From positions 1 through 27,815 of IMG/VR virus record IMGVR_UViG_3300018422_000010: a DNA stretch of 27,815 bases; one strand, 5' to 3'. Positions 5,103 through 27,119 of the stretch are shown here, piece after piece. The translations under genes and the position numbers were made by a program. How positions within the stretch are numbered: the stretch's first letter is position 1; each line of letters begins with the position of its first letter. Under the pieces are notes generated by a model. It did not search any database. It saw only the letters and a program-made list of their open reading frames with translations, and had not been told where the DNA came from. Origin of the DNA: a virus.

Positions 5103-6329
5103 TCACTTCCCGACCCATCCGGTATTGCCCGTGCCGCTTTGCTTCACATACCAGCTCGTTCCAGCGCCGCCGTCCGTCCTGGAATGGAACGAGCCGACGT
5201 TGGCGGTAACGACGCCTTCCGGCGAGCCGGAGCCTTCGGTCCAGGTGCAACTGCCAATTTTAAAGCCGGTGGTCGATCGAGTCTGTCCTACGACGTGCAA
5301 CTTGTTCGTGATATCGGTTTGCGTAACGGAGCCGGGATCGAAGCCGATTCCGATATTCGTCGACGGTCCAGCCAGGTTGATATGCTTGGCGACAGATCCG
5401 TCGTTATTGATGCCGTCGATGTTCGCGACGTTGGTGATGCCGACGATGAAACGGAACGAAGTTTTAGAGGAATCGCCGAGACCCGCTGAGTCGCCGAAGA
5501 TGATCTGACGATTCCCGGTCCCGTTGTGAGACAGCGCGAGCATTATCCCGTTGGTGTTATCAACGGAAGAATCCAGCGCGGTCCCGTTCAAAACGAGCGA
5601 GGCGTTCGCGGCCGAAGAAGATTGCGCCTTTACGTTGACGAAAGTAGCGGGCAGGCGCGCGGCGGGGACCGTGCCGCTGGCAAGGTTGGTCGCGTTGAGC
5701 GCCGTCAGATTCACGCCGGACGCAGCCGGCAGCGTCGCAGGGAAACGCGCGTCGGGTAACGTGCCGCTGGCAAGGTTGGTCGCGTTGAGCGCGGTCAGAT
5801 TCACGCCGGAGGCAGCCGGCAGCGTCGCAGGGAAACGCGCGTCGGGAACTGTGCCGCTGGCAAGGTTGGTCGCGTTGAGCGCCGTCAGATTCACGCCGGA
5901 CGCAGCCGGCAGCGTCGCAGGGAAACGCGCGTCGGGAACTGTGCCGCTGGCGAGGTTGGTCGCGTTGAGCGCCGTCAGATTCACGCCGGACGCAGCCGGC
6001 AGCGTCGCAGGGAAACGCGCGTCGGGCACTGTGCCGCTCGTCAGGTCCGTCGCGCTGCGTGTAACGAGATCCGCGAGGCTCGAGGAAGTCTTGCTCACTT
6101 TCGCCCACGGAATCTGGGCGTCGTCGAAGATCAGATTCGACGCGGCGAAATTGAAAGTCGATCCGGCTTCGCCGGTGAAGGTGACTCCGGTCTTCACGGC
6201 GAAGGTGCCGCTCCGGATCTGCGAGGCGCCGTCGACGGTGAGATGCTTTATGGGAGTGTCAGCGAAACCGGAAAGAGTGGAAAGGCAGAGGAGTAATGGA
6301 GTGATGGAGTGATGGAGTAATTTTTTCAT
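5103..6329 (-). CDS. Repeat-containing tail fiber with N-terminal signal peptide
   Basis: This encodes 408 residues. The N-terminus (MKKLLHHSITPLLLCLSTLS, then GFADTP) looks like a Sec signal peptide. Residues about 100-220 are four near-identical 30-residue repeats containing SGTVPDARFPATLPAASGV and NLTALNATNLA, of the kind found in phage fibers and trimeric beta-helical shafts. The C-terminus ends with GSPEGVVTANVGSFHSRTDG and YVKQSGTGNTGWVGK, a tip motif shared by many phage receptor-binding fibers. The start shares an ATGA with the upstream gene, so the signal peptide is in the natural reading frame and not an annotation artefact. A signal peptide on a virion fiber is odd: either it is a host-derived exported protein or the leader came from the TGGAGTGA-type repeat that encodes it (6290-6320). 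Fiber role is well supported; export is a prediction. Confidence 0.82.
   Translation of the reverse strand: MKKLLHHSITPLLLCLSTLSGFADTPIKHLTVDGASQIRSGTFAVKTGVTFTGEAGSTFNFAASNLIFDDAQIPWAKVSKTSSSLADLVTRSATDLTSGTVPDARFPATLPAASGVNLTALNATNLASGTVPDARFPATLPAASGVNLTALNATNLASGTVPDARFPATLPAASGVNLTALNATNLASGTLPDARFPATLPAASGVNLTALNATNLASGTVPAARLPATFVNVKAQSSSAANASLVLNGTALDSSVDNTNGIMLALSHNGTGNRQIIFGDSAGLGDSSKTSFRFIVGITNVANIDGINNDGSVAKHINLAGPSTNIGIGFDPGSVTQTDITNKLHVVGQTRSTTGFKIGSCTWTEGSGSPEGVVTANVGSFHSRTDGGAGTSWYVKQSGTGNTGWVGK
5671..6059 (-). repeat. 90-bp tandem repeat in the fiber gene (4 full copies plus a partial)
   Basis: Four consecutive 90-bp units (5671-5760, 5761-5850, 5851-5940, 5941-6030) differ at only a few bases each, and a partial fifth unit continues to about 6059. 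The unit length is a multiple of three, so copy number can change by slippage or recombination without breaking the fiber frame. Synonymous differences between copies are very few, which indicates recent expansion or ongoing homogenisation. Confidence 0.95.
6290..6320 (-). repeat. Degenerate TGGAGTGA-type short tandem repeat
   Basis: The plus strand reads GAGTAATGGAGTGATGGAGT followed by GATGGAGTAAT, a 7-8 base unit repeated about four times. Read leftward it encodes HHSITPLLL in the signal peptide of the fiber. A related tract is at 11399-11428. This style of repeat is familiar to me from intergenic regions of Verrucomicrobiota genomes, which is recall and not something I could search. Confidence 0.75.
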
Positions 6330-15243: not shown

Positions 15244-15350
15244 AAAACTGGACAGGATTGAACAGGAGGCCGCAGAGATCGCTGAGATTTTTCCCCAGAC
15301 CACAACTCCGTGGTCTCTGTTTCCTCCTTGTAAGATTTTTTCTCGTTCAT
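15240..15350 (-). CDS. 36-residue relay ORF inside an extragenic-type repeat
   Basis: The ORF begins at 15350 with an ATGA shared with the terminase stop and ends at 15240 with a TGA that overlaps the portal ATG (again ATGA). It encodes MNEKKSYKEETETTELWSGE then KSQRSLRPPVQSCPVL. The peptide has no recognisable fold, and the DNA looks like a non-coding extragenic repeat; an internal 7-bp hairpin and an AAGGAGG sit inside it. The double stop-start coupling makes it likely that ribosomes translate through it from terminase to portal, whether or not the peptide has a role. Function unknown. Confidence 0.5.
   Translation of the reverse strand: MNEKKSYKEETETTELWSGEKSQRSLRPPVQSCPVL
15244..15346. 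repeat. Extragenic-type repeat between terminase and portal
   Basis: The strand read leftward contains AAGGAGGAAACAGAGACCAC, CTGCGGCCTCCTG and TCAATCCTGTCC. These phrases resemble widespread extragenic repeats of soil bacteria (strings such as ACAGAGACCACGGAG). AGACCAC (15297-15303) and GTGGTCT (15310-15316) form a 7-bp hairpin. Origin from a host repeat is my recognition, not a search result. Confidence 0.55.
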
Positions 15351-16816
15351 CCGACCAACCTCCGGGAGTGGCGGATCTCCGATCGGGATTGCGCCTGGCC
15401 GGGTTGCGTGGCGGCTCCGAACGGTTTGAAGGTGCCTGGGAGTGAAGGCGTGGCGCCGGCATGAAGCGCGAGCGCGAGCGCCCAAAAGCGATCGGCGTGG
15501 CCATTGGTCCCGCGATCGGCCGCGAAACGCACATTGCCGGCGAGCGTCGTTTCTTTTTTCACGGCGCGCAGATCGGCGGTGATGAATTTGTCGTCGGGAA
15601 TTCGCACGCGCATTTCCTCGAACGCGATCTTCATCGGGTAAGCCAGCTCCTCTTTCACCCGCGGCGTGAATGTGACCGCTTCCACTTTATATTCGCCGTG
15701 CGCCTGCCTGGCCCGCTCGGCGAACTGGATGCCGATGCCGGTGTCGTCGATGCAGCAACGGCGCACCTGCGGAAGGGCGAGGATGGAATACAACTCGGCT
15801 TCCTGCGCGTCGAACCGCTGGCGATGCAGCTCGATCACGCGGCGGGTGTAGAACACGTCGCCCAATTTTTCGAGCACCCAGATGACCGTGAGATCATGGC
15901 GCCGGCCAACGTCGACGCCGACAAACAGTTCGCCCTTCGCGTCGCCGAGATCGGTCTGCCATTTTTCCTCGAGTCGATACCGGCACTTGATGATCTGCTC
16001 GTATTCCAGGAACGCGGAGGCATCGTCGGCCGGGTTGCAGCAATACTCCTGCTGCCAGGTCTCTTCGTCGCCGCACTCGTTCCGGACCATCTGCATGTAT
16101 TCGTCCTCGTTCATCAGGAGCCGAGGATCCGCGGGATCGAGATTTCGCCAGGCTGGTTTCAACTTCACGAGCAAGCCTTCGCGAAGCGCGTCTTCGAGTG
16201 TGACCCGATGGAGCGAAAAGCCTTTCGGGTTTCCCTTCTCGCGGATCTCGCGAATCAGCTCGTTGAAATAATTGTGGCTGCCGCGGTGCGTGGAAAAGAT
16301 GACCAGCCGGCCGCCCCAGGTGATTCCCGGATAACCGATCGCGAATAGTTTCCGATTCTCCGGATTGAGCGCGAACTCATCCATCTTGCGCGTACCGCGT
16401 TTGCCGGCCTGCGCGTCGACGTTCGAACTGAGGTTCCAGATGTTGCGCTCGTTCGCGAGCGGAAGCCGGAGGGCGCTTATCTTTTTGCCTTCCACTTCGA
16501 TGATCGATTCGCCGAGATCGCCGGCCGCGATGTTCATGGCGCGCGCCCACATCTTGCAATCCTCGCCGTAGAGTTGCGCCTGGATCTGATCGCGCGAGCT
16601 GACCCAGCAATCGAACGGCCAGCCGGCGCCGGCCGTTTCCATGACGGTGTCGTAAGCATCGCACCAGGAGAAACCGAGCTGGCGCGATTTCTCGCAAATC
16701 TTTTTGCGCGAGCGATCGGCGTTCCAGCGGCCCTGGAAGGGAAGGAATCGTTTCGCGCGGATCTGTTCTTCCCATTCGAGAATTTCGCGCTCGGATCGTG
16801 GAATAAAAATAGTCAT
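15347..16816 (-). CDS. Terminase large subunit (Mu gp28-like)
   Basis: This 489-residue packaging motor has both enzymatic halves. The ATPase half has a Walker A variant around 42-50 (EKSRQLGFSW, as in gp28-like proteins that use KSRQ.G), a Walker B at 144-149 (KMDEFA, D146/E147) and a coupling segment at 174-182 (FSTHRGSHN). The nuclease half has an RNase H-like fold with D302 (FVGVDVGRRHDLTVIWV), D357/D358 (CCIDDTGIG) and D442 (GHADRFWALALAL). It cuts and pumps phage DNA through the portal. In Mu-type phages it packages headful from integrated copies and so carries host DNA at the ends. Its start shares an ATGA with the small terminase gene. The last 30 residues are polar. Confidence 0.92.
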   Translation of the reverse strand: MTIFIPRSEREILEWEEQIRAKRFLPFQGRWNADRSRKKICEKSRQLGFSWCDAYDTVMETAGAGWPFDCWVSSRDQIQAQLYGEDCKMWARAMNIAAGDLGESIIEVEGKKISALRLPLANERNIWNLSSNVDAQAGKRGTRKMDEFALNPENRKLFAIGYPGITWGGRLVIFSTHRGSHNYFNELIREIREKGNPKGFSLHRVTLEDALREGLLVKLKPAWRNLDPADPRLLMNEDEYMQMVRNECGDEETWQQEYCCNPADDASAFLEYEQIIKCRYRLEEKWQTDLGDAKGELFVGVDVGRRHDLTVIWVLEKLGDVFYTRRVIELHRQRFDAQEAELYSILALPQVRRCCIDDTGIGIQFAERARQAHGEYKVEAVTFTPRVKEELAYPMKIAFEEMRVRIPDDKFITADLRAVKKETTLAGNVRFAADRGTNGHADRFWALALALHAGATPSLPGTFKPFGAATQPGQAQSRSEIRHSRRLVG

Positions 16817-21749: not shown

Positions 21750-22040
21750 CTACTTTCGGCCTTTCCTCTTAGCGTCGTAGCGCGGCGAATCCTCCGCGGC
21801 GCGCAGATGGGGAAAGCGGCCCTTTTGGCCTTCACTGCGCCCATCTTGCTCGCGCAAAATCTCCCGCCAGTTGTGGGGAAGGCTCGTGATTCCGCCGTGA
21901 GATTCGAAGTGATCGCAGAACGATTTCGCAAGAAAGCGAATCAAAGCTGACTTGTTGGTCCCCATCCGCCTGGCTACGGCATCCAACCGGGCGATCAGAG
22001 TGGCGTCGAGACGCACCGGGATGGGCTTTCCTTCGGCCAT
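21750..22040 (-). CDS. Ribbon-helix-helix regulator, first gene of leftward operon
   Basis: This 96-residue protein has an N-terminal CopG/Arc-type RHH domain: PIPVRLDATLIARLDAVARR then MGTNKSALIRFLAKSF, with the beta strand IPVRLD, helix A and the G(T)NKSALIRF turn before helix B. A charged, disordered tail follows (QKGRFPHLRAAEDSPRYDAK). RHH dimers bind DNA through the beta strand. It is divergent from, and paralogous to, the RHH gene at 22122: both have P-hydrophobic-P-hydrophobic-RLDA, AR..., RMG and S...IRF at matching positions. An excellent promoter (22077-22105) reads into it. It probably represses or activates one or both divergent promoters. Confidence 0.82.
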   Translation of the reverse strand: MAEGKPIPVRLDATLIARLDAVARRMGTNKSALIRFLAKSFCDHFESHGGITSLPHNWREILREQDGRSEGQKGRFPHLRAAEDSPRYDAKRKGRK

Positions 22041-22047
22041 TTTCCCT

Positions 22048-22060
22048 ATCGTATAACGAT
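22048..22060. promoter_or_regulatory. Operator-like palindrome 1
   Basis: ATCGTATAACGAT has perfect 5-bp arms (ATCGT/ACGAT) around a three-base centre. It lies between the leftward promoter and the leftward RHH start codon, so binding there could autoregulate the leftward gene. Confidence 0.6.
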
Positions 22061-22076
22061 TTTGAACATTGGCACG

Positions 22077-22105
22077 ATTATTTCTTTACATCTTTCGTAT
22101 ATCAA
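22077..22105 (-). promoter_or_regulatory. Leftward promoter for the long operon
   Basis: Read leftward, the -35 TTGATA (22105-22100, 5 of 6) and -10 AATAAT (22082-22077, 5 of 6) are separated by exactly 17 bases. Start would be near 22070, giving a roughly 30-base leader that includes palindrome 1. The -35 overlaps the left arm of palindrome 2, so a protein bound there would block it. Confidence 0.65.
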
Positions 22106-22114
22106 TACTATACG
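22085..22114 (+). promoter_or_regulatory. Candidate rightward early promoter
   Basis: TTTACA (22085-22090) and TATACG (22109-22114) are 18 bases apart; each is a partial match to the -35 and -10 consensus. Transcription would begin near the ATG at 22122, implying a leaderless or nearly leaderless message, which fits the absence of a usable Shine-Dalgarno (AGGA is only one base from the ATG). The -10 is the right arm of palindrome 2. Confidence 0.35.
22096..22114. promoter_or_regulatory. Operator-like palindrome 2
   Basis: CGTATATCAATACTATACG has perfect 6-bp arms (CGTATA/TATACG) with a seven-base centre. It overlaps the leftward -35 and the candidate rightward -10, so one bound regulator could cover both promoters. 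Confidence 0.65.
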
Positions 22115-22121
22115 TCAGGAC

Positions 22122-22304
22122 ATGAAGACAAAACCAGCCACTCACCCGCTGCCGATCCGATTGGATGCGGAATTGAGGGCGAGAATCAAACGCGCCGCCA
22201 AACGCATGGGCGCGTCGGATTCGGCTACGATCCGCTTCGCGATCGTGAACCAGCTGCCGCACATCGAGGCGGGGCGCATCACTCTTTCTCCCGCCGCGAA
22301 ATGA
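22122..22304 (+). CDS. Ribbon-helix-helix regulator, first gene of early operon
   Basis: This 60-residue protein is almost only an RHH domain: PLPIRLDAELRARIKRAAKR, MGASDSATIRFAIVNQL, then a short tail. The ATG at 22122 follows the control region; a TTG-initiated longer frame from 22062 would run through the operators and is not credible. It is paralogous to the leftward RHH gene, with most conserved positions in the strand and helix A. By analogy with a Cro/CI pair the two may oppose each other. Its stop shares ATGA with the next gene. Confidence 0.8.
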   Translation: MKTKPATHPLPIRLDAELRARIKRAAKRMGASDSATIRFAIVNQLPHIEAGRITLSPAAK

Positions 22305-22646: not shown

Positions 22647-23027
22647 ATGCCGAAGACCTATTCCCCGCCCGCGCTTAGCGCGCGCCAGCGCGACGCAGTG
22701 GAAGCCGGGGAATACGATTTCCTGATCCCGACCCGCAAGCCGCTGATGCGGACGGACGAAGTCGCGCAGGTGTTGCACCGGAGCCTGGATTTTGTGCGGG
22801 CGCTGGTCGGGGAAGGAAGGCTGGAGGCGCACCGCGATAGCGCGAAGGGGGATCGCGCCACCAACATCATTACGCGCCGGAGCGTGGTTCTCTACCTGGC
22901 TGAGACCTCCGATTACGACCCGGCCTACATGATCATGCGAGTGGAGGCGGTCTTGAAAACATTCAAGGCGCCGGCCCTGGACCGGATCATCGCGTTCGCG
23001 AACCGGCAGAAAAATCTGCTGACCTGA
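22647..23027 (+). CDS. Helix-turn-helix (excisionase/MerR-like) early protein
   Basis: This encodes 126 residues from the ATG at 22647; the longer frame from 22545 would run inside the previous ORF. Residues about 30-75 (PLMRTDEVAQVLHRSLDFVR, ALVGEGRLEAHRDS) follow the pattern of excisionase/AlpA-type winged HTH domains: T..EVA..L..S...VR.L...G.L.A. A second part (TNIITRRSVVLYLAETSDYD) continues the wing and ends in a helical C-terminus. Likely a DNA-binding accessory factor for transposition or a regulator. It is 14 bases from the previous stop. Confidence 0.7.
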   Translation: MPKTYSPPALSARQRDAVEAGEYDFLIPTRKPLMRTDEVAQVLHRSLDFVRALVGEGRLEAHRDSAKGDRATNIITRRSVVLYLAETSDYDPAYMIMRVEAVLKTFKAPALDRIIAFANRQKNLLT

Positions 23028-23032
23028 GCCCG

Positions 23033-23791
23033 ATGAAGAGCGCGAAGAATTCAACGGGTGCTTCGTCGCTCGAACTTATGCCGGCGACCCCGATCGCGCT
23101 GGTCGACCTATCGATTCCGCAGCTCGAACAAACCCACGATCAGCTTCTGAATCTGGAGCAGCTGCACAACAACATGTCGGGATCGTGCGCGGTCCTCCGC
23201 GGCCTGGTCCTGGGCGAACTAAAGCACAAGCTCAAACACGGAGAATTCATTCCGTGGGTGAAGGCGCACTACAAAAAGTCGTATCGTTCGGCGACGGTTT
23301 ACATGCGCCTGGCGCGCCGGTTTGTGACCGAATCCAAATCGGCAGAGGCTCTGCCGATTTGCGCCCTGCTCCAGGACATGGCCACTACCCTGGGCCAAAT
23401 CGAGGAGGCCAAGCTCGATCTCCGGCATCCGGTCGTGGCGAAAGTGGTGAGCTGGGTCAAGGGCCGATCCGCGCATCAACTCCTGCTCGATTTTCCGAGC
23501 GAACGCGGCGGCGATAACACGCCGCGCGACGGCAGCGGCAAGCGGATCGCGAACCGGCGCCGGACCAAAGCGGAGATCGCTCGCGAGGAATTTGAAGAGG
23601 AGGCGTTCGAGGCCTGCCGCGACACCGCGAAGGCGTTGCGCGCGATGCTTACCGTGGAAGGTCCGGAAGAAGAATCCGCCTGGGTGGTCCTTTCGGCGTC
23701 CGACCTGGAGAAACTGAAACAGGACCTCTACGACGCCTACCAGGGAGTGAAGGAATGCCAGGCGCGGCGGAACAAAGCCGGAAAGAAATGA
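23033..23791 (+). CDS. DUF3102-like early protein
   Basis: This 252-residue protein has a segment at about 27-100 (LSIPQLEQTHDQLLNLEQLH, LGELKHKLKHGEFIPWVKAH, RSATVYMRLARRF) resembling DUF3102, the family pattern being ..KLKHGEF..WV......S...A..YM.LA. DUF3102 proteins are small phage and plasmid proteins, probably DNA-binding, of unproven function. A charged middle (RRRTKAEIAREEFEEEAFEA) and an acidic C-terminal helix follow. Its stop shares ATGA with the next gene. Confidence 0.7.
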   Translation: MKSAKNSTGASSLELMPATPIALVDLSIPQLEQTHDQLLNLEQLHNNMSGSCAVLRGLVLGELKHKLKHGEFIPWVKAHYKKSYRSATVYMRLARRFVTESKSAEALPICALLQDMATTLGQIEEAKLDLRHPVVAKVVSWVKGRSAHQLLLDFPSERGGDNTPRDGSGKRIANRRRTKAEIAREEFEEEAFEACRDTAKALRAMLTVEGPEEESAWVVLSASDLEKLKQDLYDAYQGVKECQARRNKAGKK

Positions 23792-24000
23792 CGATGGAAC
23801 TAACACCATGCTCCTGCGGCTCAAGGGTGTTTTCGAAAATCACCGAGGTTAGAGGTTGGGTCACCGACCTCCTGACGGTCACTGCTTCCGGTGAAATAAA
23901 AGTAAAGCGTGTCGCCAATAAGGTTCGCATCGAGCGGGAGCCGAAGAGGGTCTGCTGTGAAGGCTGCGGGAAACGTCAGCCGCTGTTCGTCGCTAAATGA
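23788..24000 (+). CDS. Small zinc-ribbon-like protein
   Basis: This encodes 70 residues from ATG 23788 (ATGA with the upstream stop). Two Cys pairs, CSC near the start (TPCSCGS) and CCEGCGK near the end, suggest a zinc ribbon with a beta-rich centre (WVTDLLTVTASGEIKVKRVA). Its stop overlaps the transposase ATG (ATGA), so it is translationally coupled to the transposase. Role unknown. Confidence 0.6.
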   Translation: MTMELTPCSCGSRVFSKITEVRGWVTDLLTVTASGEIKVKRVANKVRIEREPKRVCCEGCGKRQPLFVAK

Positions 24001-26039
24001 ATACCGAGCTTTCGATCTACGACGCGGAGACGGACGTGCAGGACGAAGTCCGGAAGCTGCAAAAGATCATGGTGAAGATCAAGGCGGCGCCGAAGAAAAC
24101 CGTCGCGGCAAAACAACACTGCGCGGCGGCCGGATGCAGCTGGCAAAAATTGCACAAGCGTTTCATCGAATGGAACAGGTCGGGCGGGACCGATCTGTTT
24201 ACCCTGGTCGACCGCCGCTTCTGGCCGCAGCTCTGGGCGAACAACCAGGAGATCGCGCTGCCTAACGAGTTTCTCGAATGGGTCGGCGGCAAGATGCTGG
24301 GCAACCAGCGCAAGAGCCGGCCGGCTTACCGCCTCATCTGCGAGCAGGTTGAAAAATGGCGCCGGACCGGCGCGGAGAAATATCGCATCCCAGGCTACGC
24401 CGAAGCGCCGCCGCCCGGCATGAAAGGCCATCCGGACGGCTGGTCCTACAAGAACCTGATGCGCACCGCGCAGCCACCGAAGGAAGAACTGGCGATCGCG
24501 CGCATCGGGACCGTCGCCGCGAAAGAATTTCTCCCGTTCGTGCCAGGCACGCGCGAGGGCGTCCGCTTCCTGGAATATGTTTTCTGGGACGACGTGGTCC
24601 ACGATCGCAAGTGCATCCTGCGCGGCTTCGTCGAGCCGATGCGACTGCTCCAGCTCGGCGGGCTCGATTACGGCACCGGCGTTTATTTGAAGCACGGCCT
24701 ACGCCCGGACGTGCCGCGGGAAGATGGCACGCGCGAGCGATTGAAGCGGCGCGATTTTCTCTGGCTGATCGCGGAGTTCCATCGCGAGTTCGGCTACCCG
24801 GCCGATTATCCGATGCACCACATCGTGGAGCGCGCGACCGCCACGATGAGCAAAGCCGAAGCGGAATTTCTTTTCGACATCTCGGGCGGAATGATCCGCG
24901 TTTGTTACACCAGCATGGAAGGCCAGCTGGTCCTGGCCTGGCAGGAAGCGAAGTCGGGAAATCCGCAGGGCAAATCGCCGATCGAGAGCTGGCACGGTCT
25001 TTTTCATAACGAGCAGGCGGCGCTGGCCGGCCAGGTGGGCAAGGACCGCGATCATTCGCCGGCCGCGCTTTACGGGAGCGATCGCGAAGTCGTCGCGCTG
25101 AACAAGGCGGCGCTGCTCCTCACGCCGCGGCAAAAGGCCAGGCTGAAGCTGCCTTACCCCGAGCTGCTCGAAGCGCACGCGCAAACGATGCAGATCATCC
25201 ACCGGATCAACCGGCGCCGCGACCACGTCTGCGAGGGCTTCCAGAAGGTGCTCTTGTGGCGCCTGAAAAAAACCAAGATGGAGTGGCGCCATGAAGCGGA
25301 GCTGGCGCAGCTCGACATCCCTCACAACCAGATCGATTTCCGGCCGGTCCAGGAAATGCCGATCGAGCGGCTGCAAAAGCTCAGCCAGGGCGTGACGATG
25401 AATTACATCCATCCCGGCGCACTCGTTAGGTTCTACGAAGACTCACATTCACCGGACACAATAAAACGCCGGCAGGCGAAGGTAACGATCGACGGCAAGC
25501 GTTTCATTTTCGGTCCCGAGCGGCCGGGCGACTGCCCGCCGAACGGCCAACGGATCGTGCTCCATCACGCGCCGATCGAACCGAAGATCGCGCTCGTCAC
25601 TTTGAACGGCCGCTTCCTGGGCGTGTGGCGCCGCCAGCTGGCGCACCGCGGCAACGCCGAGGAACTGGCGCAACAGATCTCGCGCAAGCAATCGTTCCTC
25701 CACGCCGCGGTGGCATCCGTCCGCGGCAAGATGCTCGACAAACTCGTCGAGGCCGATCGCCGGCTGACGGACAACCAGGAACTTCTGGAAGATGCCGGCG
25801 TGCTCCCGAGCGAAGCGGACCATTCGCTCGCAGTGCGCAATCAGGCGCCGGGAACGGCCGTGGCCGGCGCCATGCAGGGCCGGACCGAGCAGCTCGACCA
25901 GGAGAAGCGCCTGGAGCGTCACACGAGAGCAACTCCCAAGGCTCCCATGTCCGCCTTCCTCGCGGAAGACGGTTCCGATCCATACGACGAAACGCCGGCA
26001 TCGCCGACGCAGATCGCTTCAATGGAGGACTTCGTTTGA
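23997..26039 (+). CDS. Mu A-like transposase (DDE family, possible D-E-E triad)
   Basis: This 680-residue protein is the phage integrase/replicase by transposition. It has an N-terminal helical, HTH-like region (about 35-65), a linker, an RNase H-like core, a beta-rich Mu-type C-domain (about 440-530), and a helical tail that likely contacts the MuB-like partner. In the core, D198/D199 (FWDDVVHD) is the probable first catalytic Asp, and E330 (SPIESWHGLFHN) the probable Glu. The middle position, normally Asp in a ...DNG... context, appears as E278 in HIVERATATMS; spacings (about 79 and 52) fit the MuA arrangement. The start shares ATGA with the zinc-ribbon gene. Mu A-type identity is well supported by the following MuB-like gene. 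Confidence 0.88.
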   Translation: MNTELSIYDAETDVQDEVRKLQKIMVKIKAAPKKTVAAKQHCAAAGCSWQKLHKRFIEWNRSGGTDLFTLVDRRFWPQLWANNQEIALPNEFLEWVGGKMLGNQRKSRPAYRLICEQVEKWRRTGAEKYRIPGYAEAPPPGMKGHPDGWSYKNLMRTAQPPKEELAIARIGTVAAKEFLPFVPGTREGVRFLEYVFWDDVVHDRKCILRGFVEPMRLLQLGGLDYGTGVYLKHGLRPDVPREDGTRERLKRRDFLWLIAEFHREFGYPADYPMHHIVERATATMSKAEAEFLFDISGGMIRVCYTSMEGQLVLAWQEAKSGNPQGKSPIESWHGLFHNEQAALAGQVGKDRDHSPAALYGSDREVVALNKAALLLTPRQKARLKLPYPELLEAHAQTMQIIHRINRRRDHVCEGFQKVLLWRLKKTKMEWRHEAELAQLDIPHNQIDFRPVQEMPIERLQKLSQGVTMNYIHPGALVRFYEDSHSPDTIKRRQAKVTIDGKRFIFGPERPGDCPPNGQRIVLHHAPIEPKIALVTLNGRFLGVWRRQLAHRGNAEELAQQISRKQSFLHAAVASVRGKMLDKLVEADRRLTDNQELLEDAGVLPSEADHSLAVRNQAPGTAVAGAMQGRTEQLDQEKRLERHTRATPKAPMSAFLAEDGSDPYDETPASPTQIASMEDFV

Positions 26040-26048
26040 AAACTTTCC

Positions 26049-27119
26049 ATGCAACAACAATCAACAAAATCCGATCCGGATAATTCCGCTTCCATCCCGC
26101 CGTTCGACGAGATCGAGAAGGTATTTCTCGATGCCGGCGCCACGCCGGACCAGCTCGAAGACATCGAGTGGCTCGTCGACTACGCGGCTACCGAAAAGCT
26201 GACCACCTTCGCAGCGCTCGCGAAAGCGATCGGAGTTTCCGCGGCAACGGTCTCGAAAGTTTTGCGCGGCAAATACGCGGCCGCCATCGGCTCGTTTTGC
26301 GCGACGATCGAGAATTTCCGCGCCCAGGCCAAGGAGCAACAGGATCTCGGGTCGGTCGTCTACGTTCCCCAGCTCAGCGTCGTGCGGCGCATCACGCAAT
26401 TCTGCGACCTGACGCGCATCACGAAACAGATCGGGATTATCTGGGGAAAGAACCAGAGCGGCAAAACCAAGGCGCTCAAATACTACGCGGACAACACGCC
26501 GATGACCGCCTACTGCAAGCTGCCAGCGGGCGGGGCGACCAAGCCGAGCATGAAAAGGCTGGCGCTGGCGCGCGGCGGGACCTCGACCCGCAAGAGCTAT
26601 GAGGAATTGCGCGAGGTAATTCTGCAACGGTTCAACCCGCTCTGGCTCCCGATCGCGGATGAGTTTCACCAGACGATCAAAGGCACGACCAGGGGCCATT
26701 CGTTTCGGAGCGTGACGATCGATCGTTTCCGCGAAGTGCGGGACGAATGCGGTTGCGGCCTGGTCATCTGCGGGACCGACCAGCTCCCGGAAATGATGGA
26801 AGACGAACGCTTCAAAGATTTCCTGGGGCAGGTGGGCAACCGCGGCGTGCTCAGGATGCGCATCCCCACCGCGCCGACCAAAAAAGATATCGAGCTTCTC
26901 GCGGGTGCCTACGGATTCGAGGGCGAGCCGATCGGAAACACGGCCGCGATTGTGAGACAGATCGCGAACGAGAACGGCATCGGAAAACTCTCCGGTTACT
27001 TCGCAGTTGCGCGCCGCCTGGCTAACAAAGCCCACACCCGGCTGACCTGGAAACATTTCGACACCACGCACTCAACGCTCGCGAGTTGGGCTGAGGGGAA
27101 ATTCGAGGAAGCAGCATGA
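26049..27119 (+). CDS. Mu B-like AAA+ ATPase
   Basis: This 356-residue protein has an N-terminal HTH (about 54-75, AALAKAIGVSAATVSKVLRG), as in Mu B, followed by an AAA+ core: Walker A at 133-140 (GKNQSGKT), Walker B near 199-206 (LWLPIADEFH, D204/E205), and a sensor-like GLVICGTDQ. Mu B binds DNA with ATP, selects target sites, stimulates the transposase and gives target immunity. It starts 9 bases after the transposase stop and ends in an ATGA with the next gene. Confidence 0.88.
   Translation: MQQQSTKSDPDNSASIPPFDEIEKVFLDAGATPDQLEDIEWLVDYAATEKLTTFAALAKAIGVSAATVSKVLRGKYAAAIGSFCATIENFRAQAKEQQDLGSVVYVPQLSVVRRITQFCDLTRITKQIGIIWGKNQSGKTKALKYYADNTPMTAYCKLPAGGATKPSMKRLALARGGTSTRKSYEELREVILQRFNPLWLPIADEFHQTIKGTTRGHSFRSVTIDRFREVRDECGCGLVICGTDQLPEMMEDERFKDFLGQVGNRGVLRMRIPTAPTKKDIELLAGAYGFEGEPIGNTAAIVRQIANENGIGKLSGYFAVARRLANKAHTRLTWKHFDTTHSTLASWAEGKFEEAA

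Follow-up and report, generated by a model that had tools for sequence, protein, structure and literature searches.

The lysis/lysogeny switches of bacterial phages have mostly been described with helix-turn-helix (HTH) repressors, and a locus at which two small divergent genes both encode RHH proteins, that is, proteins of the MetJ/Arc/CopG type, raises the question of whether such a pair could itself be the switch. Here, we consider this question for a 27,815-bp IMG/VR virus record, which ends inside the early operon and which we call the window, meaning the whole stretch of DNA that was analysed.

The phage and its divergent RHH genes

The phage is a B3-like transposable phage, with a B3-type terminase, transposition genes and early and late arms that diverge. 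Its terminase is 55% identical to that of Pseudomonas phage B3, with other transposable siphophages likewise matched, and the genes that place it are the following.

15347-16816, minus strand: terminase large subunit, in the leftward late operon (52-55% to B3, Lsp-JY19 and StopSmel)
22647-23027, plus strand: HTH_17 (excisionase/CII-like) protein of the early operon (PF12728, 20.1 bits, below the cut-off)
23033-23791, plus strand: DUF3102-like early protein, compare B3 ORF13 (PF11300, 24.0 bits, just under the cut-off; B3 annotation)
23997-26039, plus strand: Mu A-type transposase (profile from the B3, Lsp-JY19, StopSmel and Mwe-Yong1 transposases; PHROG transposase, E 0.003)
26049-27119, plus strand: Mu B-type transposition ATPase with an N-terminal HTH (phrog_296 DNA transposition protein, 6e-20; AAA_22, TniB)

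The order of the rightward arm (HTH_17, DUF3102, Mu A-like, Mu B-like) resembles that of B3. The HTH_17 protein has relatives in L022, L030 and L011, and similar genes lie 3' of the early RHH gene in L009, L010, L019 and L022. No match to the Mor late activator (PF08765), present in B3, was found in the window or in 19 records with an RHH pair, records that are possibly incomplete or whose Mor may be divergent. The product of the gene at 5103-6329 (minus strand) begins with a signal peptide-like segment and contains a unit of about 30 residues repeated in tandem (LNATNLASGTVPDARFPATLPAASGV); it is perhaps a tail fibre or adhesin.

At the junction of the two arms lie the RHH genes, here RHH-L (late side) and RHH-E (early side, the first gene of the transposition operon), with the following features in and around the region between them.

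21750-22040, minus strand: RHH-L, 96 aa, proposed prophage (maintenance) repressor (PF01402, RHH_1, 24.8 bits; cut-off 20.5)
22041-22121: divergent control region, proposed as shared, exactly 81 bp and 67% AT (39% for the whole window)
22048-22060: proposed operator O_L, ATCGTATAACGAT, a palindrome (ATCGT-ATA-ACGAT) just upstream of the L start codon
22077-22105, minus strand: candidate promoter P_L, TTGATA (22105-22100)-17-AATAAT, 10/12 in a consensus scan, with its -35 inside O_E
22085-22114, plus strand: candidate early promoter P_E, TTTACA (22085-22090)-18-TATACG (22109-22114), with its -10 inside O_E
22096-22114: proposed operator O_E, CGTATATCAATACTATACG, an inverted repeat (CGTATA-N7-TATACG) with its centre 17 bp upstream of the E start codon
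22122-22304, plus strand: RHH-E, 60 aa, proposed Ner/Arc-like partner (PF01402, 19.0 bits, just under the cut-off)

Both proteins contain a strand-helix-helix domain that matches RHH profiles. The profile of the E proteins matches the solved RHH chains of ORF56, PutA and CopG, and the AlphaFold model of RHH-L has helices at 13-26 and 30-47, with CopG as its best Foldseek match (probability 0.99, but E 0.17). The model of RHH-E (pLDDT 88.9) gave weak matches, Arc and CopG among them; with E-values above 0.1, the Foldseek results for the two proteins agree with an RHH fold and say little more. The C-terminal motif of RHH-L, around NWxEIxxxxDGR, recurs in relative L010 and less closely in L241. 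The preliminary description of this DNA had taken the two as divergent RHH paralogs around an AT-rich region of 81 bases, and this held throughout: both reading frames and their profile scores agree with it, the proteins are 48% identical over 50 aa (BLASTP, 42 bits), in an alignment that extends past the domain core, and they fall in one tree clade (96/91).

The three CGTATA/TATACG hexamers that it had placed in palindromes were likewise found, at 22050, 22096 and 22109 and within two palindromes, as was the overlap of the second palindrome with the leftward -35 (TTGATA) and the candidate rightward -10 (TATACG), both of which lie inside 22096-22114. P_L is the sole match of the consensus scan in 22041-22121, and P_E is a weak match, below the reach of that scan, whose position agrees with that of the TTGAC boxes that many relatives have 35-39 bp upstream of E. 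With the spacing of these boxes, transcription would begin at the E start codon or right beside it, both in the window (22085-22122) and in many relatives, and the E message may thus be leaderless. Taken alone, the repeats of the window are unremarkable: the hexamer occurs seven times in the whole 27.8 kb against about 7.6 expected, and dinucleotide shuffles of the region gave p 0.16 for the best repeat and p 0.09 for the hexamer. The case from a single sequence therefore cannot stand, and it is the comparison with relatives that decides.

Recurrence at one genome position and precedents in other phages

Relatives were gathered with terminase and transposase profiles, from viral and genome loci. 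Scans with RHH-L, RHH-E or the Mu B protein singly had found no relatives, and it was the terminase profile that opened the family; the proteins of the pair have no match in 50,697 phage records, and those of two subtype II relatives are likewise unmatched in the phage collection. A divergent RHH pair stands upstream of 30 of 121 distinct Mu A genes, a fraction that is no prevalence because some seeds of the later scan were themselves phages with RHH genes, and one further contig (L190) brings the set to 31 pairs, the window included. All come from IMG/VR viral contigs, 29 remain after removal of pairs more than 60% identical, and the weak members are the L side of L225 (E 3.3) and the E side of L248 (E 0.005). 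The search for the same pair in related phages, which the preliminary description had proposed as a check, thus returned it in 30 further phages, and the 31 intergenic regions measure 64-116 bp (median 84). In five relatives (B3, Lsp-JY19, L012, L030 and L047), a CI-type HTH protein occupies the L side at this same spot, which suggests an exchange of modules. Sinorhizobium phage StopSmel has a lone RHH gene (L005:876-1112) beside annotated c repressor and ner genes.

What this position does in relatives with HTH proteins is known from the B3-like phage Fc02, where a thermosensitive mutation and strand-specific RNA-seq identified the late-side gene, which is expressed in the lysogen, as that of the immunity repressor. 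The gene on the early side is ner-like and comes first in the early operon that is induced; 106 bp separate the two genes, and their promoters overlap (PMC9936078). In B3 itself, ORF18 (P22 c2-like; HTH_31, 28.8 bits) faces ORF17 (HTH) at the early/late junction, with the early arm running one way and the late arm the other. The switch of these phages (repc and ner; Beetrevirus) shares with our locus its position, the divergent arms, a region of about 100 bp, overlapping promoters and the order of early genes; it differs in its proteins, which are HTH there and RHH here on both sides. Phage Mu also has a repressor (c) and a small negative regulator (Ner) divergent at the head of its transposition operon, although these have other DNA-binding folds and the early and late genes of Mu run the same way. 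The earlier suggestion that a duplicated RHH gene fills both the c and the Ner roles can be kept in part: the paralogs do sit in the repressor/Ner position of a B3-like phage, and the roles themselves are predicted from sequence. RHH-L was also said to head the late operon, which is probably not the case, because in Fc02 the lysogen expresses the equivalent gene within a distinct transcript of some 1.9 kb (PMC9936078).

Of all single clues, the one that points most clearly to the late-side gene as the CI-like partner is a predicted fusion found once, in a protein encoded identically at L068:4875-5477 and L200:7037-7639, in which the RHH domain is followed by Peptidase_S24 (46.8 bits). Its SMEP and VKRW motifs are presumably those of self-cleaving repressors. 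It resembles repressors of the LexA/CI type in the S24 domain and these motifs, and differs from them in having RHH rather than HTH at its head; the other late-side proteins of its subtype have the same linker (PPxRxGKGGRPKK-like) and no protease domain, which RHH-L of the window also lacks.

Antitoxins are common among small RHH proteins, and a few of the proteins here weakly match antitoxin profiles, so that the two genes might instead be antitoxins or autoregulators of unrelated genes that came to diverge by chance. We regard this as very improbable, given 31 divergent pairs at one syntenic point, an L protein that carries a LexA/CI-type protease domain and neighbours without a known toxin family on either side; a type II toxin-antitoxin pair was set aside in view of the same neighbours.

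A closer precedent for the layout is immI of phage P22, in which 90 bp, with promoters and operators that overlap, separate two divergent RHH genes, mnt and arc; both products are repressors (PMC2629481). As proposed here, one of the two is a maintenance repressor and the other gene heads a lytic transcript. The locus is therefore not a wholly new type of switch, a possibility first raised in the preliminary description, since P22 has the same divergent RHH layout. P22 also suggests another reading, in which the RHH pair would be an accessory module in charge of a side function, lysogeny being governed by an HTH repressor encoded elsewhere, since this exact layout in P22 controls the antirepressor ant and is auxiliary to the HTH repressor C2 (PMC6550527). 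The window contig is incomplete, and HTH_3 scores over its cut-off elsewhere in five RHH-pair records (L173, L213, L218, L255 and L264), both of which would fit an accessory role. However, HTH_3 matches in the longer records fall largely in Mu B-sized frames, as in L173, the exceptions being L213 (a record that may include host DNA), L218, L255 and L264, and most RHH-pair records have no CI-like HTH match outside such a frame. Phage_CI_repr, searched at E 0.01, was found neither in the window nor in 17 of the 19 longer RHH-pair records, L213 and L218 having sub-cut-off matches alone. Moreover, RHH-E heads the transposition operon itself, the pair occupies the main repressor/Ner spot of B3 and Fc02 and no CI-like repressor was detected in the window; the genes after RHH-E are small unknowns followed by those for HTH_17, DUF3102 and the transposase, with no ant-like neighbour seen. 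We consider an accessory role quite unlikely. The separate CI/Ner pair that might have lain just outside the window is thus argued against by most of the longer RHH-pair relatives, in which no CI-like HTH repressor was seen, with the reservation that the window record ends inside the early operon.

Further afield, F55, a small RHH protein of SSV1, binds repeated sites at the early promoters and thereby maintains the carrier state (PMC9608457), although this is a single RHH gene of an archaeal virus, with no divergent RHH partner described. Our searches of the open-licence literature returned neither an account of a transposable phage with an RHH pair as its switch nor one of an RHH-S24 phage repressor.

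Proposed shared operators and a covarying strand residue

Across the 31 regions, the repeats that carried little weight in the window alone form a pattern. In 19 of them (8.3 expected, p 4e-5), the best inverted repeat has its centre 13 to 27 bp upstream of the start codon of E, often directly following a TTGAC-like box that lies 35-39 bp upstream of E. Words at the L start match words at the E start better within a phage than after re-pairing of phages (z 6.5 and 7.6, p 5e-5), in a test run on non-overlapping L-side and E-side windows. Sequences are also kept between individual phages: CCCTATCGTATAAC stands at the L start of L170 as it does in the window, with 52% identity between the two E proteins, and L242 has CGTATATCAACGCTATAC, which is near-identical to O_E, where the window has CGTATATCAATACTATAC.

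The proteins covary in a corresponding way. The strand of an RHH protein faces the major groove of DNA, with Arc using Q9, N11 and R13 for this purpose. At the position of Arc N11, E and L of the same phage have the same residue in 21 of 31 pairs, against 4.8 expected by re-pairing (z 8.3; the median column has z 1.4), and a hand-made alignment, with which the automatic one agrees, gave identity in 10 of 12 pairs. The signal persists within subtype II, whose L proteins form one clade (11/19 identical, 4.4 expected, p 0.0006), where one helix column stands out too. The residue also goes with the DNA: TTTAAC occurs in the region of all eight phages whose E or L has Gly at N11 and in none of the 23 others, with a p of 1.3e-7 that is generous, since these eight are related phages of one subtype and the Fisher value overstates their independence.

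Two considerations temper this evidence. Most of the domain shows raised similarity between the E and L proteins of a given phage, and part of the covariation therefore reflects shared ancestry or gene conversion. In addition, Arc and Mnt of P22 share N11 as well and yet have separate operators, which means that identity at N11 is no proof of one operator; at our locus, E and L seem to share half-sites. On balance, the evidence favours E and L reading a shared set of operators. The shared operator of the preliminary description would not have survived on the window repeats alone (p 0.09-0.16), and what speaks for it is the recurring repeats, the matching L and E words and the N11 covariation.

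The same covariation could be read as that of a dimer interface, because RHH dimers pair through the very strand that covaries, and RHH-E might then titrate RHH-L through a shared beta-ribbon, in heterodimers or mixed tetramers, with no competition for operators. This seems unlikely to us, as covariation is weaker at the core residues of the strand (F10, L12 and W14) than at the DNA-facing N11, and the N11 residue goes with the operator sequence.

A proposed RHH switch and its evolution

We consider it probable that the RHH pair is the lysis/lysogeny switch of this B3-like transposable phage, a reading supported directly by homologous position, recurrence, paralogy, repeated operators and the association of residue and operator. 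Most likely, RHH-L would be the prophage repressor and RHH-E a Ner/Arc-like lytic partner, with one operator set read by both; in this scheme, we infer the binding of the proteins to the sites, the assignment of repressor and anti-repressor, and the inducer. In the lysogen, RHH-L made from P_L would bind the palindromes over the early promoter and keep the transposition operon off. Upon loss of RHH-L, P_E would fire and RHH-E would be made first, whereupon its binding to the same operators would shut P_L, whose -35 lies inside O_E, and so hold the phage in the lytic state. Later, RHH-E may damp P_E, as Ner or Arc would. An inducing signal can be suggested for the S24 variant alone.

How the pair arose can be read in part from a tree of 62 sequences, which is built on few columns and leaves many forks unresolved. 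RHH-E and RHH-L of the window fall in one clade of 14 rows (7+7, 96/91), apart from other RHH proteins, E and L of L248 are sisters (100/87), and the starred branches require no fewer than three E/L changes. RHH pairs thus formed by duplication or conversion more than once, and the other E/L pairs may derive partly from separate duplications.

More broadly, and with a little less than even confidence, we suggest, for transposable phages of the environment, a main switch free of HTH proteins, in which one RHH gene was duplicated more than once into a repressor and an anti-repressor that read the same operator through an immunity-setting beta-strand residue (for example, Gly with TTTAAC); this would provide a code that predicts immunity groups, and an added S24 domain would give an SOS-cleavable version. 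What is new is the RHH pair as the apparent main switch of a widespread lineage of transposable phages, the layout itself being known from P22. In this lineage, RHH proteins appear to have taken the place of both repressor and anti-repressor at a single fixed position, where relatives keep an HTH pair. It can now be asked how an essential switch comes to be exchanged, how the match of paralogous repressors to one operator is maintained and whether one strand residue can predict immunity specificity, and the pair offers a testable function for genes that database searches miss.
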